DNA from: Halorubrum sp. 48-1-W
GTDB taxonomy: Archaea > Halobacteriota > Halobacteria > Halobacteriales > Haloferacaceae
DNA length: 56,943 bases
Assembly (NCBI RefSeq): GCF_003287355.1
Contig: NZ_QMIM01000030.1
Coordinates: 1-56,943 of the forward strand
Direction of reading: 5' to 3'
The notes under the pieces are model-generated. The model did no database searches. It saw only the letters and a list, made by a program, of their open reading frames with translations, and was not told the DNA's origin. This document shows, piece by piece, positions 4,085 to 19,419 of the stretch; position 1 is the first letter of the stretch; each line of letters starts with the position of its first letter. A program made the translations under genes and the position numbers.

Positions 4085-4810
4085 GTGACTACGATTTTCC
4101 GCGTCAAATTTACTACAACTCCGATAGGACGAATCGCTGACATTCAGCAGGCTACCTCAAATATTCGAAGTATTGCACTGGACAACGCGTTCTATATTGA
4201 GGATGGAACATGGTTTGAATCACTCACGATCGCCGCAGCGGGTGAACTCAACTCTACGGACATTGCGGACATTTCTGGAATCGAGCTGTTTGACGAACAG
4301 GAGGTTCCAAGTGGCCCGACCGATGTCAATATTCGTCGATACACGGTACTCGCAACCGAACCATACCCATTCATTCTTGGCGTAGTTCTCAGACAGGAAG
4401 CTATTCCCAACCGAATAGTCTTACAAAACGGCCGGTTTGAGGTCGTTGTAACAGTACGGGAGTGGGAAGTAGTCCAGTTGCTGGCAGAACAGATCGGTGA
4501 GCAGTTCGGCACGTTCGATCTGGAGAGCGTTACCGAAGTTGATCGAAGTGGAGAGCCGCTCGACAGCGGTCGGCTTTCGGAGGTGCTTGTATCAAAACTC
4601 ACTGACGACCAGCTTGTAGTGCTCGAAACAGCTTACGAACTTGGTTACTTTGAGGTTCCAAGAGAGGCTACAGCGAGTGATATCGCGGACGCACTCGATA
4701 TCGCAGATTCGACCGTGAGTGAGCGCCTCCGCGTGGCTCAGCGAAATCTTTTCGAGCTTATTTATGGCGCGCGGAGCGCCGATGGCGTGAACGAACTCGG
4801 AGAAATGTAG
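4085..4810 (+). CDS. BAT-type HTH transcriptional regulator
   Basis: This 241-residue protein is a bacterio-opsin-activator-like regulator. An N-terminal alpha/beta sensor-like domain of about 165 residues is followed by an HTH_10 domain at about 170-230 (LTDDQLVVLETAYELGYF, then DIADALDIADSTVSERL as the helix-turn-helix). The start is a GTG at 4085 with no obvious Shine-Dalgarno. It is a DNA-binding cytoplasmic protein. The importer operon starts 94 bp downstream on the same strand, so local control of that operon is the simplest guess. No ligand-binding motif is evident. Confidence 0.8.
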   Translation: MTTIFRVKFTTTPIGRIADIQQATSNIRSIALDNAFYIEDGTWFESLTIAAAGELNSTDIADISGIELFDEQEVPSGPTDVNIRRYTVLATEPYPFILGVVLRQEAIPNRIVLQNGRFEVVVTVREWEVVQLLAEQIGEQFGTFDLESVTEVDRSGEPLDSGRLSEVLVSKLTDDQLVVLETAYELGYFEVPREATASDIADALDIADSTVSERLRVAQRNLFELIYGARSADGVNELGEM

Positions 4811-4904: not shown

Positions 4905-6872
4905 ATGAGTGCTAATGTCATGGATGATAATGACACCTTGGACGTGGTTGAGGGGGTGCTTGGGGAGGGAACCTCGCGCCGGCGAATGCTCACCGTACTC
5001 GGAACGGCGGGCGCAACGGCGTTGGCGGGATGTAACGCGCTGACCAGAGACAACGAAAGTGGCGGTGGGTCAGGTGGCGGTGGGTCAGGTGGCAGTGGGT
5101 CAGGAGACGGGCGCACAATGGAGACCCAATTCTGGAACGATTGGCCGCTCGAGTCGAAGAACAACGATAACGTTCCTCTTGAATACGCGGCAGTTGAGGG
5201 ACAACAGCTCGATCAGGTGCGTATCTCGTTCGGGAGCGACGACACGCCGTGGATGCGTGAGCACGCACTGATGATCCAGTCGAGCTTCGAGGAGATCGGT
5301 ATCCCCACAACGCTGGAATCGGTCCCAGTGAATGTCCTATACGACGAACACTGGCCAGTCGATACTGGTCACATAGATCCAGTAACAATGAACGTTCACG
5401 GGCCGGATCCACAGCGCGGACTTGACCCGAACCCATTCTTGATGCGCATGCACCCCGAAACCGGGGGGAACTACTACAACTACTGGAATGAGGAAATTAC
5501 GGAGTTGCTCAATGAAGAGACAGAAGAGGTTGCGGATGCCGACCGACGGGCCGAGCTCGTCCACGAGATCCAGTCGCTCGCGAGCGAGGATGCGTACATA
5601 ATCTCTGTCGGATTCCCAGATGTGATCACGGCCGCTGATACGAGTAACTGGAGTGGCTACGTCCCGACACCGGGCAACGGAACGACCCAAGATTCGTTCA
5701 TTTGGAGCCAAGTTAACCTCCAGCCTGAGACCGACGAGGGCGTCTGGGTCAAAGGTGTGACCAACTCAATGAACGGAACGAACATCGCGTGGGGAACTGG
5801 AGGCCCGGAAGAGAAGCGGCTCCTCAACATCTACGACGGGCTCGCAGATGCGACCCCACAGCTTGAGATCGCACCTGCGCTAGCGACCGATTGGGAGGCG
5901 GTCGACGAGACCACTGTTGAGATGGAACTGCGTGATGGCGTGGAGTGGCACGACGGTGAGCCATTCGGGCCGGAGGACGTGAAATTCACTGTTGAGCTCT
6001 ACCAAGAGTACAACGCGACCTCACAAGGACCGTTCTACACTCCCATCGACAGCGTCGAGGTGCTCTCGGAGTCCGGTGGAGGGAGCGTCCGGTTCAACCT
6101 GTCTAGTCCGGATGCACCCTTCTTGACACAGCGAATCGTCCGGAGCGTCATCCTGCCGGAACACCGGTGGGCAGATGTCGATAACCCGAGTCAGCATAGC
6201 CCTGACCCGCCGATCGGAACGGGGCCGTTCAAATTCGTCGACTGGGATTCTGGGACGCGCTTCGAGGTCGAGAAGCACGAGAGTCACTGGATGTGGGACG
6301 AGGACGTGCGTAACGACCTACTCGGTGACGAGTTCTTCGAACCGGGCGACGGGATCGAGGGGATCGTGTGGTCCAACGTCGGGAACGTTGACGCACTCAT
6401 CGGCGCACTCCAGCAGGGTGACATCGACGCCGTTGGGACGACGCTGTCCAACGACCAGGCGGAACGCGCGGCTGAAACTGATGGAATTGAAAAACAGACC
6501 GCGGATAATTTTGCGGTGCTTGACGTTCACCTGAACCACATTGTTCCGCTAATCCGAGACAAGGAGGTCCGCCGTGCGATCTCCCATTCTGTCGACAAAG
6601 AGGGTTTCTTTGAGGGCGTGCTCGGCGGCCGGGGTACGGTTGCGGAAGCACAAAACCTGATCTCGCCGCTGATGGAGCCATGGCACAACCCGGACGCTCC
6701 TGGATATGCCTTCGACCGGGATGAGGCCCAGTCGATCCTGCAGCGGGCGGGCTACACAACCCAAAACGGAACACTCGCGTGGCCCAGCGGTGATGCCTGG
6801 GATGCGTTCGTCGAGCGCGTCGAGGATGGGCATGCCGGCCGCGAGGAACTAGACCAGCCTGACTTCTCATAA
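4905..6872 (+). CDS. ABC importer substrate-binding lipoprotein (SBP family 5), apparent circular permutation
   Basis: This is the solute-binding component of a peptide/nickel-type ABC importer, 655 residues. A Tat motif (RRRM at 25-28) and a lipobox (LAGC, Cys43) show export and lipid anchoring outside the cell, followed by a Gly/Ser linker (51-69). The order is unusual. Residues 104-270 (DQVRISFGSDD, then LVHEIQSLASEDAYIISVGF) look like the usual C-terminal third of the family. The normal N-terminal start (RLLNIYDGLADATPQLEIAP, then LRDGVEWHDGEPFGPEDVKF) follows from about residue 280. The chain ends after RDEAQSILQRAGY, where the family usually continues into the C-terminal third. The ligand is unknown. 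Confidence 0.85.
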   Translation: MSANVMDDNDTLDVVEGVLGEGTSRRRMLTVLGTAGATALAGCNALTRDNESGGGSGGGGSGGSGSGDGRTMETQFWNDWPLESKNNDNVPLEYAAVEGQQLDQVRISFGSDDTPWMREHALMIQSSFEEIGIPTTLESVPVNVLYDEHWPVDTGHIDPVTMNVHGPDPQRGLDPNPFLMRMHPETGGNYYNYWNEEITELLNEETEEVADADRRAELVHEIQSLASEDAYIISVGFPDVITAADTSNWSGYVPTPGNGTTQDSFIWSQVNLQPETDEGVWVKGVTNSMNGTNIAWGTGGPEEKRLLNIYDGLADATPQLEIAPALATDWEAVDETTVEMELRDGVEWHDGEPFGPEDVKFTVELYQEYNATSQGPFYTPIDSVEVLSESGGGSVRFNLSSPDAPFLTQRIVRSVILPEHRWADVDNPSQHSPDPPIGTGPFKFVDWDSGTRFEVEKHESHWMWDEDVRNDLLGDEFFEPGDGIEGIVWSNVGNVDALIGALQQGDIDAVGTTLSNDQAERAAETDGIEKQTADNFAVLDVHLNHIVPLIRDKEVRRAISHSVDKEGFFEGVLGGRGTVAEAQNLISPLMEPWHNPDAPGYAFDRDEAQSILQRAGYTTQNGTLAWPSGDAWDAFVERVEDGHAGREELDQPDFS

Positions 6873-6955: not shown

Positions 6956-7942
6956 ATGAACTTCAGACGATTTTTGATCAAACGTATCGCTATCTCGATA
7001 GTGCTGACAGTTGTGGCTGTCTCGATAATTTTCCTGACCATGCGGCTGCTCCCAGGCGATCCGTTCGGCTCTCTGGTCGCTAGTGGCGATCTCAACACGG
7101 AGCAGCTTGAAGCGGTCCGCGCACAGTACGGACTGGACCAGCCACTGTGGGTCCAGTACGTCCAGTATCTTGGCAACATCTTGACGTTCAACTTCGGCTT
7201 TTCGATCACACAGGGACGGCCCGTCTGGGATATCCTGTTCCCGCAACTTGTGGCTACGCTCGTGTTGCTGGTTCCGGCACTGATCGTCACTGCGATCGTG
7301 TCCACAATTCTCGGGATGTACGCTGGCTGGAACCGCGGTTCGACCTTCGAGAAGTCGAGCATTGTTGTGACCACTTTCTTCCGGTCCACCCCAATCTTCA
7401 TTACTGGGATATTCTTCCTGATAATCTTCGCATATCAGCTGAGCTGGTTCCCTGCGTTCGGAATTCGGAGCCCGACGGCTAACCCCGACGGATTCTTCGA
7501 GTTATATCTCTCGTGGGACTTCGCGAAGCACTACTTCTTGCCCTTCGCAACGTCGGTGTTATTCTACAGTGGGGACTTTCTGCTACTGTCGCGCAATAGT
7601 ATCGTGGAGCGGAAGGGAGCGGCCTACCTCAAGCTTCACGCAGCAAAAGGGCTCAACGAGGCAGAACAGCTTGCTCGTGCCGGCCGGAACTCGATGCTTC
7701 CCGTTGTGACGTACTTCGCGCTCCGGATGGGGATGCTGTTCCAGGGGGTAATTACATTAGAGGTGGTGTTCGCCTGGCCGGGCATCGGCCGTGGGCTCGT
7801 CACCGCGATCCAACAACAGGACTATCCGACCGTACAGGCGGCGGTGTTCATTATGGCGTTAGCTGTGATCGTAATGAACCTGCTTGCGGACGTTGTGTAC
7901 GCTCGGATCGATCCGACCGTCAGTGTGGGTGATAACGTATGA
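6956..7942 (+). CDS. dppB: ABC transporter permease, DppB type
   Basis: This is a 328-residue inner-membrane permease. It starts with RRFLIKRIAISIVLTVVAVS as the first helix and has five further hydrophobic segments. The DppB signature LRMGMLFQGVITLEVVFAWP and the cytoplasmic EAA-type loop (ARAGRNSMLPVV) are present and contact the ATPase. Together with DppC it forms the pore for the ligand delivered by the preceding lipoprotein. The gene begins 83 bp after the binding protein and overlaps the next gene by 4 bp (ATGA), so translation is probably coupled. Confidence 0.9.
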   Translation: MNFRRFLIKRIAISIVLTVVAVSIIFLTMRLLPGDPFGSLVASGDLNTEQLEAVRAQYGLDQPLWVQYVQYLGNILTFNFGFSITQGRPVWDILFPQLVATLVLLVPALIVTAIVSTILGMYAGWNRGSTFEKSSIVVTTFFRSTPIFITGIFFLIIFAYQLSWFPAFGIRSPTANPDGFFELYLSWDFAKHYFLPFATSVLFYSGDFLLLSRNSIVERKGAAYLKLHAAKGLNEAEQLARAGRNSMLPVVTYFALRMGMLFQGVITLEVVFAWPGIGRGLVTAIQQQDYPTVQAAVFIMALAVIVMNLLADVVYARIDPTVSVGDNV

Positions 7943-8859
7943 GCGTCACGAACCGCGAGGTGGCCCTTGAAAAAGTCTCAGAGCTCCACAATCGGGTCAG
8001 ATACACCCTTGGGGTTGTCCTTAGCGACCCGTGGGCGCGGATAGGACTGTTTGTCCTCTCCACGTTCTTTTTCCTCGGGATCTTCGGCCCTTATCTCGCC
8101 CCGCACGACCCGATCCAGTACACGGTTACAGACGAAACGGGTAGCACCCTGCGTACGGGTGCCCCGTCGACGACCGCCCCGTTGGGGACTACAGCGTTCG
8201 GCAAGGACGTGTTGAGCCAGTTCCTCGCCGGCGCAAGGCCGACGTTTATTGTCGGCATTTTCGGCGGGCTAGGGACTGGCGTCATCGGCTTCCTCGTTGG
8301 CCTCACAAGTGGATACTTCGGCGGACGTGTCGACGAGGCGCTGATGCGGTTCACCGATCTTACGTTCGCACTGCCGCTCCTCCCCATGGCGCTTCTGATC
8401 CTTACGTTCGTAACGCCGAGCATCTATCTCATCGCGCTGGTCATCACGGCATTCCTCTGGAAGATGCCTGCGCGGGTGATCCGCTCGGAGGTGCTGTCCG
8501 TGAAAGAGCGAACGTTCGTCAGGTCCGCTCGCGCTGTTGGCGCGGGCCACGGACGAACAATGTTCCTCCACGTGGCCCCGAACGTACTCGCGGTTGGCTT
8601 CCTCTACACGGCCTACGCAGTCGCATGGTCGATCGCGGTCCAGGCATCGCTTGCGTTCCTTGGATTTGGGGATCCAACAATGACCAGCTGGGGACGTATG
8701 CTCAGACAGGTCTTCGAGTCCGGTAGCATCCGCGTTGCCTACTGGTGGGTGCTTCCGCCCGCGATCGGTATCGCGGCGGTGACGACGTCCGTGTTCCTTG
8801 TCGGCCGGTCACTCGAAGAAGTGATCAACCCCGAACTCCGTGAGGAGGGATCCGAATGA
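7939..8859 (+). CDS. dppC: ABC transporter permease, DppC type
   Basis: This is a 306-residue permease of the DppC family. The short N-terminal region leads to a first helix (GLFVLSTFFFLGIFGPYLAP). The typical DppC periplasmic segment (PLGTTAFGKDVLSQFLAGAR) follows, then the EAA loop (RSARAVGAGHGRTMFLHVAP). It pairs with DppB to make the channel. It overlaps dppB by 4 bp at its start and the ATPase gene by 4 bp at its end, which shows one operon. Length and motifs are normal. Confidence 0.9.
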   Translation: MSVTNREVALEKVSELHNRVRYTLGVVLSDPWARIGLFVLSTFFFLGIFGPYLAPHDPIQYTVTDETGSTLRTGAPSTTAPLGTTAFGKDVLSQFLAGARPTFIVGIFGGLGTGVIGFLVGLTSGYFGGRVDEALMRFTDLTFALPLLPMALLILTFVTPSIYLIALVITAFLWKMPARVIRSEVLSVKERTFVRSARAVGAGHGRTMFLHVAPNVLAVGFLYTAYAVAWSIAVQASLAFLGFGDPTMTSWGRMLRQVFESGSIRVAYWWVLPPAIGIAAVTTSVFLVGRSLEEVINPELREEGSE

Positions 8860-10991
8860 GTTTGCTCGAAATCGACGATCTGACAATTACGTACGACACC
8901 GGTGATGGTAGCGTTCACGCGGTAAACGGCGTCTCATTCGACGTCGAAGCCGGAGAGAACTACGGGCTCGTCGGCGAGTCTGGCAGCGGGAAGTCCACTG
9001 CTGCGCTCGCTGTGCTCGGCCTCCTTGACGACAATGGAAATGTCGAGAGCGGCGAGATCCGATTCAAAGGCGAGGACGTGCTATCTATGCCAGAATCACG
9101 TCGTCGCGGGATCCGGTGGGAGGAGATTGCCTACATTCCTCAGAGTGCAATGGACGCGCTCGATCCGGTGATGACCGTCGGCAAACAGGTCGATCAGGCG
9201 ATCCGAAAACACCGCGATGTCTCGAAACCGAAAGCTCGAGAACGGACCCGCGAGGTATTCGAAATTGTCGGTCTCGATCCTGACCGCACCGACGACCATC
9301 CGCACCAGTTCTCCGGCGGCATGCGGCAGCGTGTCTCCATTGCGATGGCGCTTGCACTGGAGCCGGATCTGATCATTGCGGACGAGCCCACAACTGGTCT
9401 CGACGTGATCGTTCAAGACAAGATCATGAACAAGATCGTTGAGATCCAAGAGCGAACTGATAGCTCTCTCCTGTTCATCACCCACGATATCGGGGTTATT
9501 GCCGAGGCAAGCGATCGAATTTCCGTGCTGTACGGGGGCAAAGTGATGGAGCAGGGACATACCGATCGGGTACTCGCCGAGCCGACAAATCCCTACACGA
9601 TGGGATTGAAGAACTCCTTCCCAGATATCGATAAGCTTGGCGAGGTCGCTGTCTCAATCCCAGGGTCGCTCCCTGAACTTGACGCGGCGCCGGACTCATG
9701 TGTGTTCAGCAACCGCTGCCCGTTCGCCACTTCAGAGTGCGAGGATGCTCATCCTCCGATGGCGGATCTGGGAGACAGCGACGACGCTCAGCAACGCTCA
9801 GCCTGCTATCGAGTTGATGAGGTCGATCGGCTCCGTCCGGAGGCGACCAATCCAAATACGTGGGGAATTGACATCCGAGAACGTGACAGCTCGGAGCCGG
9901 GCGATACTGTTCTGCAGACCCGCTCCCTTTCAAAATGGTACCAGCAGCCGCAGGGTCTTCTCGACGGGATCCGTGGGAGAGAGCCTGACTACGTGAAGGC
10001 TGTCCAAGATGTCAACCTCGAAATTTGCGAGTCAGAGATTCTCGGCGTTGCAGGTGAGTCCGGGTGTGGCAAGTCGACGCTCGGAGAGACAGTGGCGATG
10101 CTTGGCGAGCCAACGAACGGTGACATCGAGTTCCGTGGCACGTCAGTTGAGGAGTACCGTAATGGGGAGATGAAGGAGTTCCGCTCGAAGGTACAGATCA
10201 TCTTCCAAGATCCCTTTGACTCTCTGAACCCGCGACAAACCGTCCGGAACTGCGTCGGTGAGCCACTGACGATCCGTAACCGCTCGCGGACAGAGATAGA
10301 CGAGAAGGTTGTCGAGACACTCTCAGAGGTCGGACTACGACCTCCAGAGAAATTCCTCAATAAATACCCACACCAGTTGTCAGGAGGCGAACGACAGCGT
10401 GTGGCGATCGCGCGCTCGCTCGTTCTTGAGCCAGAGCTGCTGATCTGCGATGAACCAGCGTCGATGCTTGACGTGTCGCTAAAAGCCAGCCTGTTAAACG
10501 TGCTACGCCGCCTCGCGGACGAGCGAGATCTCGGTGTATTATATATCTCACACGATCTCGCGAGTCTCACGCAAATCGCTGACCGCTTGGCGATCATGTA
10601 CCTCGGCGAGGTTGTAGAGAAAGGGCCGACCGCAGATGTGATCGATTCGCCGAAACACCCGTACGCAGCATCTTTGTTGTCGGCATCGCCAAAGCCCGAC
10701 CCCCGTGCGACCCGTGAGCGGGTACTCCTTCCAGGGGAGCCGCCTGATCCGATCGATCTACCTGCCGGATGTAATTTTGCTCCTCGGTGTCCGAGGGCGA
10801 AAGACGACTGTCGCGAGGCAGACCCCTCGCTGTCAGCGGCGAGCGACGGAGACCACGAAGGTGCCTGCTTCTTCCCGGTTGACGGTGAAATGTCGGGCAA
10901 CGACGACGGATCGGTCGGGGGGAATGGAGCAGCCAGTGGTGACGGTTCGACTGACGCCGACGGACCGGTTAGGACAGACGGGGGCGAGTGA
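8856..10991 (+). CDS. fused DppD-DppF ABC ATPase
   Basis: Two oligopeptide-type ATPase domains are fused in 711 residues. Domain 1 has Walker A GESGSGKST (residues 40-48), signature FSGGMRQR and Walker B LIIADEPTTGLD. Domain 2 begins near residue 350 with Walker A GESGCGKST, signature LSGGERQR and LLICDEPASMLD. Each domain ends with the cysteine-containing oligopeptide C-terminal motif (CVFSNRCPF and CNFAPRCPRAKDDC), which in relatives can bind Fe-S. The last 35 residues are a low-complexity Gly/Asp tail. Fusion makes a ready heterodimer that powers DppBC. It overlaps dppC by 4 bp. Confidence 0.92.
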   Translation: MSLLEIDDLTITYDTGDGSVHAVNGVSFDVEAGENYGLVGESGSGKSTAALAVLGLLDDNGNVESGEIRFKGEDVLSMPESRRRGIRWEEIAYIPQSAMDALDPVMTVGKQVDQAIRKHRDVSKPKARERTREVFEIVGLDPDRTDDHPHQFSGGMRQRVSIAMALALEPDLIIADEPTTGLDVIVQDKIMNKIVEIQERTDSSLLFITHDIGVIAEASDRISVLYGGKVMEQGHTDRVLAEPTNPYTMGLKNSFPDIDKLGEVAVSIPGSLPELDAAPDSCVFSNRCPFATSECEDAHPPMADLGDSDDAQQRSACYRVDEVDRLRPEATNPNTWGIDIRERDSSEPGDTVLQTRSLSKWYQQPQGLLDGIRGREPDYVKAVQDVNLEICESEILGVAGESGCGKSTLGETVAMLGEPTNGDIEFRGTSVEEYRNGEMKEFRSKVQIIFQDPFDSLNPRQTVRNCVGEPLTIRNRSRTEIDEKVVETLSEVGLRPPEKFLNKYPHQLSGGERQRVAIARSLVLEPELLICDEPASMLDVSLKASLLNVLRRLADERDLGVLYISHDLASLTQIADRLAIMYLGEVVEKGPTADVIDSPKHPYAASLLSASPKPDPRATRERVLLPGEPPDPIDLPAGCNFAPRCPRAKDDCREADPSLSAASDGDHEGACFFPVDGEMSGNDDGSVGGNGAASGDGSTDADGPVRTDGGE

Positions 10992-10995
10992 TTCA

Positions 10996-11856
10996 ATGAC
11001 CACGTTCCGCCGATCAGCGCTGTTCACCCCGGCCGACGATCGAGAAATGATGCGGAAGGCGGCTGAGTCGCAGGCAGATGCCCTGATCTTCGACCTAGAA
11101 GATGCTGTTCCCGCTGACAGGCTTCTCGATGCTCGTGAGAACCTCAGTCATGTGGTCCCGGACGTCGGTGACGACATTGAAGTCGGCATCCGGATTAACG
11201 GCGTCGACACCGGTCAGTGGCTTGATGACTTGACGGCGGCAGTCCGTGCGGGTGTCGACGCTGTGCTCGTTCCGAAGGTCGAATCACCGTCGGAACTATC
11301 GGCGGTAGTTGACACGCTAGCGGTGTCAGCAGATTCACCCCCGATAGTCCGCTTCGCAATAGAGACACCGTCTGGGTTGCTTGAAGCGGCTTCAATCGGT
11401 GCACGGGCTGCGTCACTCTCGCTTGTTACTGGCATCTCATTCGGACTTGCTGACTACTGCCGATCTCTTGGGGCACCAGGACCAACGGAGTCTGTCCGCG
11501 AACGACTCGCGTTCAAAATCAGCTCCGTCGCGGCGGCACACGGCCTCCGTGCGTTCGCGTCGACACATCTGGATATTGACGACGAAGCGGGACTACGGCG
11601 TGCTGGAATGTCGAGCCGAGATCTCGGATTTGACGGCATGAGTGCTATCCATCCGGCCCAGATCCCTGTGATAAACGATGTGTTCACGCCGGACGTCGAC
11701 GCCGTTCGACGAGCGCGGCGACTGGTCAAGGCGTACGAGGCAGCCGATTCCGACTCAATCCGAATCGAGGGCGAGTTTCTCGATGAGGCGACGGTCGCTC
11801 ACCACCGCACGTTGATCGACCGATACGAGGCTGTCCACCACGACGACGAATCGTAG
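10996..11856 (+). CDS. CitE-like CoA-ester lyase (HpcH/HpaI aldolase superfamily)
   Basis: The 286-residue protein belongs to the citrate-lyase-beta / malyl-CoA lyase family. It has FTPADDREMMRKAAESQADA, the metal and CoA site DLEDAV, the substrate-binding arginine strand IRINGVDTG, VPKVES, the active-site glutamate region FAIETPSGLLEA and the end motif GMSAIHPAQI. Members cleave or hydrolyse beta-hydroxyacyl-CoAs such as malyl- or citramalyl-CoA. The start at 10996 is chosen because it follows the ATPase stop by 4 bp; a longer reading from 10705 would lie inside the ATPase. It is the last gene of the importer operon, so its substrate may derive from the imported compound (inference). Confidence 0.85.
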   Translation: MTTFRRSALFTPADDREMMRKAAESQADALIFDLEDAVPADRLLDARENLSHVVPDVGDDIEVGIRINGVDTGQWLDDLTAAVRAGVDAVLVPKVESPSELSAVVDTLAVSADSPPIVRFAIETPSGLLEAASIGARAASLSLVTGISFGLADYCRSLGAPGPTESVRERLAFKISSVAAAHGLRAFASTHLDIDDEAGLRRAGMSSRDLGFDGMSAIHPAQIPVINDVFTPDVDAVRRARRLVKAYEAADSDSIRIEGEFLDEATVAHHRTLIDRYEAVHHDDES

Positions 11857-11882: not shown

Positions 11883-14006
11883 TCACTCTCTCATACGGAC
11901 TAGCACGTCGACCACCGCTACCCCGTCCTCTTGGACTATGATGGGGTTCAGATCAAGTTCCGCGAGCGGTGCCTCAACCGCGAGATCCCCGACTTGGCGG
12001 ATAAGATCGACGAGTGCGGCTCGATCCACGGCCTTTGCACCACGCGTCCCATCGAGCAGCTCCGCAAGCGCTGTCTCATCGACCATTGCCCCTGCGTCAG
12101 CCTCAGAGATCGGCGGCACGCGGACTGCTCCGTCATCGAGTGTCTCAACCAATGTTCCCCCGGGTGCAACCGTCACCAACGAGTCGAACACGTCGTCGGG
12201 CGACACGCCAACCAGCGCTTCGACGCCACCACTGACGCGTCGCTGAACAAGCACACCCTCGATCGCCGCTTCAGGGTGTGCCTCACGAGTGTTCTCGACG
12301 ATCGTATCGTACGCTTGACGGGCCTCGTCTCGATCGCGAACCTCTGCGTGGACTGCTCCGATGTCACTTCGGTGCACAACGTCACGTGAATCGACTTTCA
12401 TTGCAACTGGGAAGCCGATCTCGGCGGCCGCTGATGCAGCCTCGTCAGCATCAGTCACGACCCGAGTCTCGACGGCATCAATTCCCACTGCGGACAGCAA
12501 CTCGGTTGCCTCCGTCCACGTGAGAACCTGGCCTCGTGGAATTGTCGGGAGATCAGATGACTCAGTTTTCGCTCGCAGTTCTCTTCGAGTCGGTGCCTCG
12601 CTCAGCCGCCTCTGGGTTTCACCCGCCTTCACGAGTGAGGCGACTGCGTCCAGACACCGGGCGGGATCGTAGAACAGGGGCCACTCGGAGCGAAGGCTCT
12701 CGTAAGGGAGTGGATCGGCTGAGCTATCGTCTGGATTCTTCCGTCCGGTCCAAAGGAAGGCGACCGGCGCCGGCGCGTTCGCTGCAATCGCCGCCAGATC
12801 GTCAGCTATTCGCTCTGCGCGCTCATCGACGGCGGACAGCCCGATCGCGAAGATGTACGCGTCATAGGGGTCGGCCTCGAACAGGATCTCTGCGATCTCC
12901 GGTAGTGCCTTGGCGCCGTATCCGCGAATGTCGGCGGGATTATGGAGTTCCCCGAATGTTAACAGCTCCTCAAGATCGAGAAGCTCTGCCTCGGTGTCTG
13001 TTGGGAGTGGTGGAAGATCTAGCCCCCGCTCGTCAGCGAGGTCTGCAAGGAGGCTGGCGAGTCCACCACTCGTCGATGCGATACAGACACGGCCCGACTG
13101 CGGCGGATTGAACGTTCCGTGGAAGTCAGCTCGGCCGAGGAGGTCTGGAATATCTGGTACGCGCTCGACGCCGCTCTGCTCGAAGGCGGCTTCCCAAGCA
13201 TCGTCACTTCCAGTGAGCGAGCCGGTATGTGAGAGTGTCGCCGCCTCTGCGATATCTGACCGGCCGATCTTCACGGCCAACACTGGCGTTCCATTTCTTG
13301 TCGCACGAGTTGCGGCTTCGATAAACTGATCCGGATCGTCGAGACCCTCCACGTACGCACAAATCACTTCAACATCTGGTCGGTCCGCCATGTAATCAAT
13401 GTAGTCAGCAAGAGTGAGGTCCACTTCGTTGCCCGTTGAGGCAATAGCGGCGAAGGATGTGGACTCGTCTGTACCACGCTCGTAGAACGTCGTGAACGCG
13501 AGCGCACCGGACTGGCTCACGAGTCCGATGCCTCCTGGCTCCGGCTCCCGAGAACAGGTGCTCGTCAGGACAGTCCCTGCATGCGGGTCCGCAACACCGA
13601 TACAGTTTGGTCCACAGACATGGATATCCCGATCCGCGGCGACGGATGCAATCTCTGCCTCTAGTTCTACTCCTGTCTCATCAGCTTCCCCGAATCCCGC
13701 AGAAATGACGAGTGCTGCTGGAACTCCTAGCTTTCCTGCCGTATCGACTACGTCGACAACGTATTCACGAGGAATACTAACTACGACGAGGTCCGGAACA
13801 GTCGGAAGCTCCGCAATGTCGTCGTAGCACTGGCGGCCCCAAGCCTCTGCTCGGTTCGGGTTGACCGGGTAGAAGTCGCCTTTGTACCCATACTCTAGGA
13901 GGTTGTCGACAAGACGTGATGCGTACGTTGCGTCTGGACTTGCACCGACGACGGCGACAGAATCCGGGTCGAACAACGGATCGAGATCCGGTGTGGTCAT
14001 TGGCAT
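11883..14006 (-). CDS. acyl-CoA synthetase (ADP-forming), fused alpha-beta
   Basis: The 707-residue enzyme carries a CoA-binding Rossmann domain (LFDPDSVAVVGASPDATYAS), succinyl-CoA-ligase-like domains with the phosphohistidine loop ATLSHTGSLTGSDDA, and a C-terminal ATP-grasp beta part from about residue 475 (EIGFPVAMKVDSRDVVHRSD). Such enzymes interconvert an acid, CoA and ATP with acyl-CoA, ADP and phosphate. In haloarchaea they serve acetate or other short acids. It converges on the CitE-like gene with 26 bp between stops, so the pair may act in one pathway although they are on opposite strands. The acid used is unknown. Confidence 0.9.
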   Translation of the reverse strand: MPMTTPDLDPLFDPDSVAVVGASPDATYASRLVDNLLEYGYKGDFYPVNPNRAEAWGRQCYDDIAELPTVPDLVVVSIPREYVVDVVDTAGKLGVPAALVISAGFGEADETGVELEAEIASVAADRDIHVCGPNCIGVADPHAGTVLTSTCSREPEPGGIGLVSQSGALAFTTFYERGTDESTSFAAIASTGNEVDLTLADYIDYMADRPDVEVICAYVEGLDDPDQFIEAATRATRNGTPVLAVKIGRSDIAEAATLSHTGSLTGSDDAWEAAFEQSGVERVPDIPDLLGRADFHGTFNPPQSGRVCIASTSGGLASLLADLADERGLDLPPLPTDTEAELLDLEELLTFGELHNPADIRGYGAKALPEIAEILFEADPYDAYIFAIGLSAVDERAERIADDLAAIAANAPAPVAFLWTGRKNPDDSSADPLPYESLRSEWPLFYDPARCLDAVASLVKAGETQRRLSEAPTRRELRAKTESSDLPTIPRGQVLTWTEATELLSAVGIDAVETRVVTDADEAASAAAEIGFPVAMKVDSRDVVHRSDIGAVHAEVRDRDEARQAYDTIVENTREAHPEAAIEGVLVQRRVSGGVEALVGVSPDDVFDSLVTVAPGGTLVETLDDGAVRVPPISEADAGAMVDETALAELLDGTRGAKAVDRAALVDLIRQVGDLAVEAPLAELDLNPIIVQEDGVAVVDVLVRMRE

Positions 14007-14274: not shown

Positions 14275-15387
14275 TTGGTCCAGACAGCTGAGGCGAAACA
14301 GGTTTGCCGTGCTGCGTCGACAGTGCTGTTTCCAGCGCTCGAATTCGGCGTGAAACCGTGTGGGAAGTACACGAGAGAGGATTTCTTGGAAATCCTCTCT
14401 CGGATCGCTTTTGATCAGGAGTCCGCAAATACGGGTGGGAAAACGCTCCAGCTTGATCGTGACGAGCACGTCGATATCACCGCTACGACGCGAAATTCAC
14501 TCGCTAAATCGCTGCTGTATCACTTGCGCAATCTCTCACCAGACGCCATCACCGACCAGTTCGATGGCGTCCGAGATCGAGTGTTCGAAGTCCTCCGGTC
14601 TCAGCGCCGACTTCCAGCATTCGTCGATGTTGCCATCGATCTCCACGAGTGGCGCTTCTACGGGTCTGCCGACACTGACCACGTCTTAACCACGTATCCA
14701 GATCTCGGAACGAACAAAGCGTTTTGCTTCGCAACACTGTGTATCGTCGCCCCTCGCACGCGATTTACGCTTGCGGTGGTCCCGATGGACGCGAACGGCT
14801 TTCGCGCCAAGCGCGAAGCCGTTCGCTCCTTGCTCGAAACAGCCAAACAGTACGTCTCCATTCGGCACGTCTACCTCGACCGTGGATTCTACCAAGTCCA
14901 CGTCGTTACAGAGTTAGAACAGCAGGATGTGGATTATATCGTGCGTGCGCGGCCGAGTAGTGGAATGAAAGACCGTCTCAGCGCCGGCGCTGAAACGGTT
15001 GCTGACGAGTACACGATGCAGCGAAAGCGCAACCCAACAGCGTCGGTAGATGTCACAGTCTTCGCGGTTCCGCACCGTACAAGCGAAGACGAGCACGTCT
15101 GGTTCGTAACGAGCTTGGATGTAGACTCATCGACAGCGAAGGCGTACGCGGCGGCGTTTCGCCGCCGCTGGGGGATCGAAACGTCATATCGACAGCTCGG
15201 ATATTTCCTCCCGAGAACGTCGTCACCGACGTTCTCGGTGCGACTGTTCTACTTTCTGTTCGCGGTGTCGTTGTACAATCTCTGGGTGTTAGCTAACGTT
15301 TTAGCTTCAGCTGAAACAGTTCCAGAGATACCGCTGATCTCAACACGAATTTTCCGTAGATTCGTTCTCTCGACAGACTACGGCTGA
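14275..15387 (+). CDS. IS4-superfamily transposase, ISH3-like
   Basis: This is a 370-residue DDE transposase. The acidic residues are visible in AIDLHEWRFYG (first D), YLDRGFYQVHV (second D) and RRRWGIETSYRQL (E in the Y/R-E region). The C-terminal LFYFLFAVSLYNLWVLANVL is typical of haloarchaeal ISH3-like and related IS4 transposases. The start is a TTG at 14275 and there is no in-frame ATG upstream, so the 5' end may be degraded or the start non-canonical. The coding sequence carries several long perfect stem-loops (see findings). It sits between the acyl-CoA synthetase and the orphan ATPase. Confidence 0.8.
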   Translation: MVQTAEAKQVCRAASTVLFPALEFGVKPCGKYTREDFLEILSRIAFDQESANTGGKTLQLDRDEHVDITATTRNSLAKSLLYHLRNLSPDAITDQFDGVRDRVFEVLRSQRRLPAFVDVAIDLHEWRFYGSADTDHVLTTYPDLGTNKAFCFATLCIVAPRTRFTLAVVPMDANGFRAKREAVRSLLETAKQYVSIRHVYLDRGFYQVHVVTELEQQDVDYIVRARPSSGMKDRLSAGAETVADEYTMQRKRNPTASVDVTVFAVPHRTSEDEHVWFVTSLDVDSSTAKAYAAAFRRRWGIETSYRQLGYFLPRTSSPTFSVRLFYFLFAVSLYNLWVLANVLASAETVPEIPLISTRIFRRFVLSTDYG

Positions 15388-15599: not shown

Positions 15600-17726
15600 T
15601 CAATCGGGGTTGAGTGGCTCTTTAACCGTCGTTTCATCGTCGTCTGCGGTCGTCACTTTGGCGTCCTCGCCATCTGCTGCAAGCGGATAGTGACAAGCAA
15701 CTTGGTGAGTGTTGGGGTCTTCGGCCACGTCGGACGGTCGATCAGTGGTTGCCTCCGTTTCGACACTGTTCAGCTTTGGATCTGTATGCTGACAGTGATC
15801 GTCCGCTCGCAAGCACCGGGGAGCAAACGAACATCCGGCTGGGAGCTCGTCGAGAGCTGGAGCCTCCTCGTCGGCATCGAGCGTCACACGCGGGCGAGCA
15901 GCGGTCGGATCCGTCTCAGGCATCGCTGACAGCAGCGCATTAGTGTACGGGTGTCGCGGTGTCTCGGCGACGCTGCTGGTTCGACCACGTTCAACCACCT
16001 CTCCCCGATGGACGATCGCAAGTCGATCGGCGACCTGAATCAAACTGGACAGATCGTGAGAGATGTAAACAACCCCCATCTCACGTTCTCGAGCTAGTTC
16101 ACGGAGAAGGTTTAGGAGACTTGCCTTCAGTGACACGTCAAGCATCGACGCCGGCTCGTCACAGATGATCACTTCTGGCTCGAGGACGAGCGAGCGTGCG
16201 ATCGCCACACGCTGTCGTTCGCCTCCTGACAACTGATGTGGATACTTGTTGAGATATTCCTCTGGAGGGCCGATGCCGACCCGTTTGAGAGTGTCCACAA
16301 TCGGATTTTCACCTCGCTCAAGATTGTGCACCGTGATGGGCTCGCCGACAAGTTGTCGGACCGTCATCCGTGGATTCAACGCGTCGAATGGGTTCTGGAA
16401 GACAATCTGTACACGCTGGCGGAACTCCATCATCCGCCCGTTACGGTAGTGCTCGTACGGTTCTCCATCGAAAAACAGCTGACCGTCCGTCGGCTCCTGA
16501 AACAGTGCCATCGTTTCTGCCAGCGTGGACTTCCCTGATCCGGACTCGCCAGCAATTCCAAGGATCTCTGACTGTGAAACAGACAGTGAGATCTCATCTG
16601 CAGCCTTCACTTCTTCCGGACCGTACCCTAGCAATTTGTCGAGCAGTGTTTGGCTGCCACGGTACCACTTTGTTAAATCCTCGACTTCAAGGAGTACCTC
16701 ACCAGTTGAGTCTGACACTTCTTCCTGTCCGACTCCCCACGTCGAAGGATTATTGGCCTGTCGGCGGAGCGACCCAGCCTCTACCACTCGGTGGCATGCA
16801 CTCCGTTGATCGCGAACTGGAATTTCGGTGAGTTCTGGATGTGAGTCCCAGCATGAGTCGGTCGAAAACGGACATCGAGTTGCAAACACGCAGGCTGAGG
16901 GAGGCTCTGTAAGTTCTGGGGGGACCCCAGGAATTGCGATGGGGCTTGCTGCATCATCACCGCTGAGGAAGGCGTTTTTTAGCCCCATCGTGTAAGGATT
17001 TGTTGGGTTGAGAAGGACGTTCTCCGTACTTCCCTGTTCCATAACCTTTCCCCCGTACAATAATGAGAATTCGTCACATGTCTCCGCGACTGTCGCGATG
17101 TCATGTGTAATCAACAGCAATGAGCTGTCAATCCGCTCTTGTATCTCTAGAATTTCCTCGATGATCCGGTCTTGTACGACTGCATCGAGACCAGTCGTGG
17201 GCTCGTCCGCGATGATCAGATCCGGCTCCAGTGCGAGCGCCATCGCGATGACAACCCGCTGGCGCATTCCTGCCGAAAACTCGTGTGGGTAGTCATCAGT
17301 ACGGTGAGGGTCGAGGCCAACGATCTCGAACAGCTCTTCTGTCCACAGCTGTGCGCTTGAGACTGTAATATTCCTGTTTGTCCGGATGGTTTGAATAACC
17401 TGTTTGCCGACGGTCATCACCGGATCAAGCGCGTCCATTGCACTCTGGGGGATGTAAGCAATCTTCTCCCAGCGGAGGTCTCGGTACTGGGCGTCGGTAA
17501 GTTTGAGGAGATTGTAGCCGTTGAAATCAATGCGGCCGCCGGTGATCCGCGCTGAGTCTGGCAGCAGTCCGAGAATCGCATCGGCGACAGTCGATTTTCC
17601 ACACCCGGACTCGCCGGATATCCCGTAGTTGACACCATTTTCGATCGAGAAGGAAATACCGTTGACAGCGTGGACAGGTCCGTCTGGACCATCGTACTCG
17701 ATTTGAAGATCCTCAACAGTCAGCAT
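15600..17726 (-). CDS. orphan fused DppD-DppF ABC ATPase (second copy)
   Basis: This is a 708-residue paralogue of the fused ATPase at 8856-10991, with long shared stretches such as IAYIPQSAMDALDPVMTVGK. Walker A is GESGCGKST in domain 1 and GESGSGKST in domain 2, and both Walker B motifs are intact. The first signature reads FSAGMRQR instead of FSGGMRQR, while the second is a normal LSGGERQR. No permease or binding-protein gene is adjacent: upstream is a 290-bp gap and then an ISH8-type element. It may serve permeases encoded elsewhere, or be left over from an operon cut by insertion sequences. Confidence 0.88.
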   Translation of the reverse strand: MLTVEDLQIEYDGPDGPVHAVNGISFSIENGVNYGISGESGCGKSTVADAILGLLPDSARITGGRIDFNGYNLLKLTDAQYRDLRWEKIAYIPQSAMDALDPVMTVGKQVIQTIRTNRNITVSSAQLWTEELFEIVGLDPHRTDDYPHEFSAGMRQRVVIAMALALEPDLIIADEPTTGLDAVVQDRIIEEILEIQERIDSSLLLITHDIATVAETCDEFSLLYGGKVMEQGSTENVLLNPTNPYTMGLKNAFLSGDDAASPIAIPGVPPELTEPPSACVFATRCPFSTDSCWDSHPELTEIPVRDQRSACHRVVEAGSLRRQANNPSTWGVGQEEVSDSTGEVLLEVEDLTKWYRGSQTLLDKLLGYGPEEVKAADEISLSVSQSEILGIAGESGSGKSTLAETMALFQEPTDGQLFFDGEPYEHYRNGRMMEFRQRVQIVFQNPFDALNPRMTVRQLVGEPITVHNLERGENPIVDTLKRVGIGPPEEYLNKYPHQLSGGERQRVAIARSLVLEPEVIICDEPASMLDVSLKASLLNLLRELAREREMGVVYISHDLSSLIQVADRLAIVHRGEVVERGRTSSVAETPRHPYTNALLSAMPETDPTAARPRVTLDADEEAPALDELPAGCSFAPRCLRADDHCQHTDPKLNSVETEATTDRPSDVAEDPNTHQVACHYPLAADGEDAKVTTADDDETTVKEPLNPD

Positions 17727-18017: not shown

Positions 18018-19419
18018 CATCCGTCTTCAGTTAAGCAAGAAACCGTGTGACTGCGGTGGCTTATCGAGACATCTTTCGGAAGGAATGAGGAAGCCGAGTC
18101 TGTGCACGACAACGGCTCCTCATCTCGGATTATGCGTCGGCTCACTACACTGTTTCCCTCTGAGTTCCTCAAAGAGCACGCCGAGGAACTCGGCGTGGTC
18201 GAACGTGACCGAAAACTTCAGCTTCCTGCCTTCGTCTGGACATTCGTGTTCGGCTTCGCCGCAGGCGAAAGCCGAACACTCGCCGGTTTTAGACGCTGTT
18301 ACAACTCGACTGCCGATGAGACGATCTCACAAAGTGGGTTCTATCAGCGGTTGACTCCGACGCTTGCGGAGTACCTCCGCGACCTCGTCGAGCGCGGTCT
18401 CGACGAGGTCGCTGTTCCTGACGCGACAGCTGCTGATATCGACCGATTTAGAGACGTGATGATCGCTGATGGAACGGTGTTGCGGTTACACGAGTTTCTT
18501 TCAGATCAGTTCGAAGCCCGCCATGAGGAGCAGGCTGGAGCGAAGCTCAACCTGCTCCACAATGCCACAAAGCAGACGATTGAACGGATCGATACTGCTG
18601 ACGAGAAAGCACACGACAGCACCCTGTTCAAGACAGGGCCATGGCTTGAGAACCGCCTCATGCTGTTCGATCTCGCCTACTTCAAGTACCGCCGGTTTGC
18701 GCTGATCGACGAGAACGACGGCTACTTCGTCAGCCGGTTGAAGAAGAACGCGAACCCGATGATCACGTCGGAATTATGGGAATGGCGCGGCCGCGCCATT
18801 CCCTTGGAGGGCAAGCAGCTCCGAGCTGTTCTCGACGATCTCGACCGAAAGTACATCGATGTAGAGGTCGAAGTCGAGTTCAAACGAGGACCGTACAACG
18901 GGACGCAGTCGCTGGATACGAAGCGGTTCCGCGTCGTCGGCGTCCGCGAAGAGGACGCCGACGACTACCATCTGTACATGACGAATTTGGTGAGAAAAGA
19001 GTTCTTCCCGGCTGATTTAGCGCAGATCTACCGATGTCGGTGGGAAGTTGAGTTGTTGTTCCGTGAGCTGAAGACGCAGTACAACTTGGATGAGTTCGAC
19101 ACGAGCGACGAACACGTGGTGAAGATCTTACTGTACGCAGCACTGCTGTCGCTGCTTGTAAGCCGAGATTTATTGGATCTGATCACTGAGCAGGCGGACG
19201 ACGAGATCGTGTTTCCGCCGGAACGCTGGGCGGCGACCTTCCGGTCGCACGCCCAGCTCATCCTCCACGAACTCGGAGAGTACCTTGGCTACTCGCCACC
19301 GCCGTTACTGGAGCGGCTGATCGAGGATGCTCAGAAGATCCACCAACAACGACCGATCTTACAAGAGACGCTCGCTACCGCTACACAACCGAGGTGTGAG
19401 TCTTAGCTAAAGACGAATG
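18018..19419 (+). mobile_element. ISH8-type insertion sequence, about 1402 bp
   Basis: Imperfect terminal inverted repeats bound the transposase gene. The left end is catccgtcttcagttaag (18018-18035). The right end at 19402-19419 reads, in complement, cattcgtctttagctaag, which matches at 15 of 18 positions. The resulting length of 1402 bp agrees with what I recall for ISH8. The 10 bp flanking each end do not match, so no target duplication is visible. That suggests an old insertion or a rearrangement at one side. Confidence 0.65.
18102..19406 (+). CDS. IS4-family transposase, ISH8 type
   Basis: This is a 434-residue DDE transposase. Acidic residues lie in MIADGTVLRLHEF (first D), LMLFDLAYFKYRRF (second D) and the IS4 Y-R-E-K signature YRCRWEVELLFRELK. 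The start is a GTG at 18102, and the frame is intact from end to end, so the element could be active. Near-perfect palindromes are embedded in the coding sequence, including a 26-bp palindrome at 18778-18803 and a 14-bp stem at 18379-18412. Confidence 0.88.
   Translation: MHDNGSSSRIMRRLTTLFPSEFLKEHAEELGVVERDRKLQLPAFVWTFVFGFAAGESRTLAGFRRCYNSTADETISQSGFYQRLTPTLAEYLRDLVERGLDEVAVPDATAADIDRFRDVMIADGTVLRLHEFLSDQFEARHEEQAGAKLNLLHNATKQTIERIDTADEKAHDSTLFKTGPWLENRLMLFDLAYFKYRRFALIDENDGYFVSRLKKNANPMITSELWEWRGRAIPLEGKQLRAVLDDLDRKYIDVEVEVEFKRGPYNGTQSLDTKRFRVVGVREEDADDYHLYMTNLVRKEFFPADLAQIYRCRWEVELLFRELKTQYNLDEFDTSDEHVVKILLYAALLSLLVSRDLLDLITEQADDEIVFPPERWAATFRSHAQLILHELGEYLGYSPPPLLERLIEDAQKIHQQRPILQETLATATQPRCES

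Follow-up and report, generated by a model that had tools for sequence, protein, structure and literature searches.

A circularly permuted family 5 substrate-binding protein conserved in haloarchaea and Alphaproteobacteria

Introduction

SBP_bac_5 ranks among the largest transport families, and a single fixed order of the chain is taken for granted in its members. In the window analyzed here, a 56,943-nucleotide stretch of the Halorubrum sp. 48-1-W genome, the gene at 4905–6872 (+ strand) encodes a 655-aa substrate-binding protein (SBP) that an earlier note had read as circularly permuted. We asked whether the segments of this protein are in rotated order, where the chain was reopened, and how widely such an order is conserved.

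A natural circular permutant of an ABC-importer SBP has been proven in another structural cluster. TpMglB-2 (Tp0684) of Treponema pallidum, the representative of "Cluster Bc" within cluster B, is conserved in many species, binds glucose, and changes shape; its authors also raised tethering as a possible reason for the permutation (PMC4990184). Our search of the open-access literature returned no earlier report of a permuted family 5 (cluster C) SBP; as subscription papers lay outside this search, the novelty is provisional.

Results

The gene and its operon

The SBP carries a twin-arginine signal and lipobox (SRRRMLTVLGTAGATALAGC, residues 24–43; 4974–5033, + strand) with the lipobox cysteine at Cys43, followed by a GGGSGG linker, as the earlier note had described. 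Directly upstream lies a gene for an HTH_10 (Bat-type) regulator (4085–4810, +; PF04967, E 7e-19). Downstream are genes for an OppB/DppB-type permease (6956–7942, +; PF00528 and PF19300), an OppC/DppC-type permease (7939–8859, +; PF00528), and a fused OppD–OppF ATPase with two ABC_tran and two oligo_HPY domains (8856–10991, +). The operon ends with a gene for an HpcH/HpaI protein resembling CitE/citramalyl-CoA lyase (11017–11856, +; PF03328, E 2e-34), which scored 146 bits against NCBIfam RipC, under the cut-off of 375. It faces a convergent gene for an ADP-forming acyl-CoA synthetase (11883–14006, −; PF13549, PF13607, and PF13380). The synthetase gene was also linked at loci L039, L110, and L112, and the linkage of CitE-like lyase and synthetase was found at some loci only; the two enzymes hint, weakly, at an organic acid as the substrate.

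The regulator gene preceded the SBP gene in 13 of 14 orthologous loci, and the synteny of HTH_10 regulator, SBP, two permeases, and ATPase was retained in almost all orthologous loci examined. These contexts bear on the possibility that the protein, though truly permuted, no longer takes part in import and is a sensor or a surface protein instead. Some SBPs are receptors, and the import role is predicted here from sequence; however, a full permease–permease–ATPase set always adjoined the SBP gene, both in the orthologues examined and in the alphaproteobacterial members described below, and we regard a non-import role as improbable.

Elsewhere in the window, a second fused OppD–OppF-type ATPase gene (15600–17726, −) has no adjoining permease or SBP gene and is flanked by two DDE transposase genes (14275–15387 and 18102–19406). 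It is probably what is left of a further importer operon.

Order of the segments

The 655-aa protein matched Pfam SBP_bac_5 (PF00496) with 182 bits, against a curated cut-off of 32.4 bits. Residues 321–623 aligned to profile positions 1–284, and residues 100–280, searched alone, gave a weak match (E 0.016) to positions 292–344 at residues ~107–162; the earlier note had proposed separate searches of the two parts, and the matches came in the order that it had predicted. A custom profile of 34 canonical SBPs, including E. coli DppA and OppA and both archaeal and bacterial sequences, placed residues ~112–243 on columns 337–462 (39.2 bits, i-E 2e-14) and residues ~282–625 on columns 3–323 (217 bits, i-E 2e-68). 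Profile–profile alignment by HHalign, with a 14-sequence family profile as the query, aligned residues 114–258 to DppA 351–490 (probability 98.2, E 4.2e-14) and residues 288–619 to DppA 3–335 (probability 100, E 3e-59), in a trimmed DppA numbering that we take to run seven below that of the mature protein. Both SBP lobes are thus present, and the C-terminal third, last in the canonical chain, stands in front of the N-terminal two-thirds.

The chain can accordingly be divided into four parts behind the linker. Residues ~104–258 (5214–5678, +) correspond to the canonical C-terminal third, comprising the second half of lobe II and the last strand of lobe I. A seam of residues ~259–281 (5679–5747, +) links the former C- and N-ends and is conserved in the ortholog alignment as GYVxTPGNGxTxDSFxWxxVNLQP. 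Residues ~282–625 (5748–6779, +) make up the canonical first two-thirds, namely the rest of lobe I, domain Ib, and the first half of lobe II. The C-terminal tail (residues 626–655; 6780–6869, +), with a conserved ...LxQPDFS end in the ortholog alignment, is partly helical in the model described below and is missing from the alphaproteobacterial members. The earlier note had assigned residues 104–270 to the C-terminal third and started the canonical N-terminal part at about 280, and both limits were right to about 10 residues. It had also stated that the chain ends where the C-terminal third would normally follow; only 84 bases separate the end of the ORF from the first permease gene, so that no C-lobe remnant lies downstream.

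Rotation of the sequences gave concordant results. A doubled canonical profile produced a single collinear match of 267 bits across the seam, and the protein rotated back to canonical order gave one collinear match of 264 bits (columns 9–462). As a control, DppA rotated at the same point showed the split pattern of the 655-aa protein. Canonical controls never crossed the seam of the doubled profile, except for the tandem duplicate L129 and the weak candidate L132, both treated below. A PDB search likewise split the alignment to 5isu (58–340 to residues 322–621 and 355–480 to residues 119–251), as it did for 5u4o; among the 60 best-ranked PDB sequences of the profile search, no permuted structure was found. 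The C-derived block contains invariant residues, for example HGPDPQRGLDPNP where canonical chains have the ...DPxxF motif. Against the NCBIfam equivalogs DppA, NikA, GsiB, and Opp4A, the best score was 99 bits, compared with a cut-off of 650. These data support the 655-aa SBP being a circularly permuted variant of SBP_bac_5 and not a canonical member.

Break site and predicted fold

The new ends lie in the turn that leads from the "...LLEEAGY" helix and its hairpin to the following strand, between trimmed DppA residues 335 and 351 (~342 and 358 in mature numbering). In cluster C SBPs, the N-end, a middle portion, and the C-end of the chain together form lobe I, and lobe II is one continuous stretch, as in SapA (Ia, 35–68, 230–312, and 532–561; Ib, 69–229; II, 313–531) (PMC8519434). 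Because lobe II is continuous and lobe I holds both old ends, the break falls within lobe II, and the original termini are joined. From this topology, the lipid anchor would have moved from lobe I, its usual site, to lobe II.

We obtained a structural model with AF2. An alignment of 14 close orthologues only was too shallow (pLDDT 36.9); the final input had 32 rows, all of unaltered sequence from the window or from other loci and including canonical relatives split into N and C fragments, and gave a pLDDT of 86.7 and a pTM of 0.86. Model residues 174–531 (residues 271–628 of the protein) matched AppA 18–357 (Z 23.5), and the N-derived block reached Z scores of 20–23.5 against AppA, NikZ, DppA, and OppA. 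The superposition on DppA/OppA that the earlier note had proposed succeeded for this block, with model residues 182–529 on DppA 1–345 (Z 21.5); as Foldseek and VIA-align keep the chain order, it covered the N-derived block only, and the C-derived block stayed outside the sequential alignment. The predicted placement of the latter (the first ~160 model residues) is based on the pTM of the model and on the profiles. The predicted fold, the invariant residues, and the operon indirectly suggest that the same pocket may be kept, as the earlier note had supposed.

These results also bear on a reading without any permutation, in which a canonical SBP lacks its C-terminal third and an unrelated domain is fused in front. 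Pfam alone, with its marginal match to the N-terminal block, leaves room for this reading. However, the HHalign match of that block to DppA, its scores of 39–90 bits in the alphaproteobacterial relatives, the collinearity of the rotated protein over the whole profile, and the confident single-fold model argue against an unrelated front domain, and make this explanation very improbable.

Conservation and distribution of the permuted subfamily

We designated the permuted subfamily that includes the 4905–6872 protein P1. The earlier note had allowed for a conserved permuted subfamily, and this was borne out. Full-length relatives in the same order were found in 32 of 148 genomes of the source family, the source genome included (49–67% identity), and in 14 named haloarchaea. 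They occurred on named contigs of, among others, Halorussus, Halorubrum, Haloferax, Natrinema, Haloarcula, and Halegenticoccus, and on complete plasmids of Haladaptatus, Halobaculum, and Halobacterium. The source genome itself encodes ten SBP_bac_5 proteins, six permuted and four canonical; the six include L009, a member of group P5 (see below).

The same permutation was present on alphaproteobacterial plasmids of Nitratireductor, Ketogulonicigenium, Neorhizobium, Roseomonas, Maritalea, and Microvirga, where annotated records show permease and ATPase genes adjoining the SBP gene. In the class of G204, four of 144 genomes carried a clear full-length P1 member, and a fifth had a fragment at a contig end. 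A scan of IMG/VR gave no permuted relative. The same rotated order has been conserved in salt-loving archaea as well as in Alphaproteobacteria. In public annotation, the permuted proteins are called plainly "ABC transporter substrate-binding protein".

The source genome is a draft of 69 contigs, but an artefact of assembly or sequencing, or a recent, strain-specific rearrangement that broke the gene, is refuted almost beyond doubt by independent complete genomes, as the same order runs end to end at 49–69% identity in dozens of species, complete plasmids included, and five further permuted paralogues lie on other contigs of the source genome.

Other permuted groups and the number of origins

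Four further groups, P2 to P5, share the SBP_bac_5 family and a permuted order with P1 and differ from it in the break, that of P5 being near that of P1. P2, from two actinobacterial Acidimicrobiales-type genomes (MAGs), has its break at column ~96 of the profile. Its closest relatives (40–55% identity) are canonical: residues 101–485 of the P2 protein align to 210–587 of L195, and residues 487–598 to 67–179. The split is clean, and the former C-end runs straight into the former mature N-end. This permutation is apparently recent. The P2 loci are L178/L193 and L194, and the canonical loci are L195–L199 (class of G206).

In P3, represented by the Synergistaceae protein L058, the break is at column ~180, and Pfam profile positions 146–363 precede 2–144. 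Across the class Synergistia, 49 of 81 genomes had a P3 match, nearly always full length; the loci (L058/L179/L185–L192, class of G205) had a single match per genome. P4 has its break at column ~405; in the class of G183, seven of 59 genomes, from two archaeal genera, encode it. Its moved piece is short (~66 columns, 20–28 bits), and the doubled profile raised the scores from ~212–222 to ~248–270. The SBP_bac_5 proteins of the P4 loci (L131, L180, and L200–L206) are ~700–770 aa in length. P5, a second haloarchaeal group, breaks near columns 300–315, close to the site of P1. In its SBPs (L009, L117, and L122), canonical columns ~55 and ~60 are separated by ~55–65 additional residues.

Three other candidates were not counted as permuted. 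L124 (G154) appeared permuted in Pfam coordinates and was canonical by the custom profile. The 789-aa SBP-like protein L132 (G176:C1, 1818000–1823000) has columns 184–390 at its N-end and a C-terminal PGF-type anchor; its second block scored only 6–7 bits. L129 (G164:C1, ~2361000–2367500), from another haloarchaeon, is a 1582-aa ORF flagged only for being a tandem duplicate of two canonical SBP_bac_5 domains.

We brought 81 proteins into canonical order by rotation and built a tree of them, by a quick search and with long branches present. Each permuted group formed one side of a branch (SH-aLRT: P1, 80; P2, 97; P3, 100; P4, 100; P5, 99), with moderate support for P1, and five changes sufficed on this tree. 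A single clade of all permuted proteins was rejected (AU p 4.6e-53), which firmly indicates at least two origins. A clade of P1 and P5 was not rejected (AU p 0.07), and P5 is therefore not claimed as a separate event. We claim four distinct break sites in the SBP_bac_5 family.

Discussion

The 655-aa protein is very probably a working SBP of an Opp/Dpp-type importer that belongs to the old, conserved, permuted P1 subfamily and keeps the usual fold. It resembles the cluster C proteins DppA, OppA, AppA, and NikA in whole-chain homology once rotated, in predicted fold, and in its OppB/C permease and OppDF-type ATPase partners. Unlike them, it has its C-terminal third first, its termini in lobe II, where theirs are in lobe I, and its old ends joined by the seam. 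Like TpMglB-2, it is a naturally permuted ABC-importer lipoprotein conserved across many species; however, TpMglB-2 belongs to the sugar-binding cluster B, is permuted within the N lobe, and has no homology at this level, and the sequence and fold matches of the 655-aa protein are to family 5/cluster C rather than to Cluster Bc.

As a putative substrate-binding lipoprotein, it would be exported by the Tat pathway and then anchored to lipid through the linker to lobe II rather than to lobe I. With the old ends, both in lobe I, predicted to be joined by the ~20-residue seam and the new ends inside lobe II, the two lobes would close on the ligand in the usual cleft, and the SBP would dock on the two permeases.

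For the origin, the earlier note had suggested duplication and loss, and the tandem duplicate L129 and the P2 seam are consistent with such a route. An in-frame tandem duplication may have been followed by an internal deletion behind the signal peptide of the first copy, and then by loss of the signal and tail of the second. A secreted protein has to retain its signal at the front, which makes duplication with a deletion after the signal peptide a plausible origin. L129 is the sort of intermediate that this route needs, but not a direct one; for the P1 family, our search found no duplication intermediate. P2, with its canonical close relatives, offers a good pair for studying the permutation event.

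We tentatively speculate, with the odds against it, that a shift of the anchor to the other lobe or another site favours repeated permutation of family 5 SBPs, at no fewer than four break sites, by changing docking or exchange with the permeases, and that the permuted proteins form a distinct, widespread class, "cluster Cc".

The permutation explains the split or partial domain matches in proteins that pipelines report as "ABC transporter substrate-binding protein", and natural permutants are available for biosensor design. For a family assumed to be uniform in its topology, a conserved permuted class together with independent permutations constitutes a natural experiment on folding and on tether position in ABC import.
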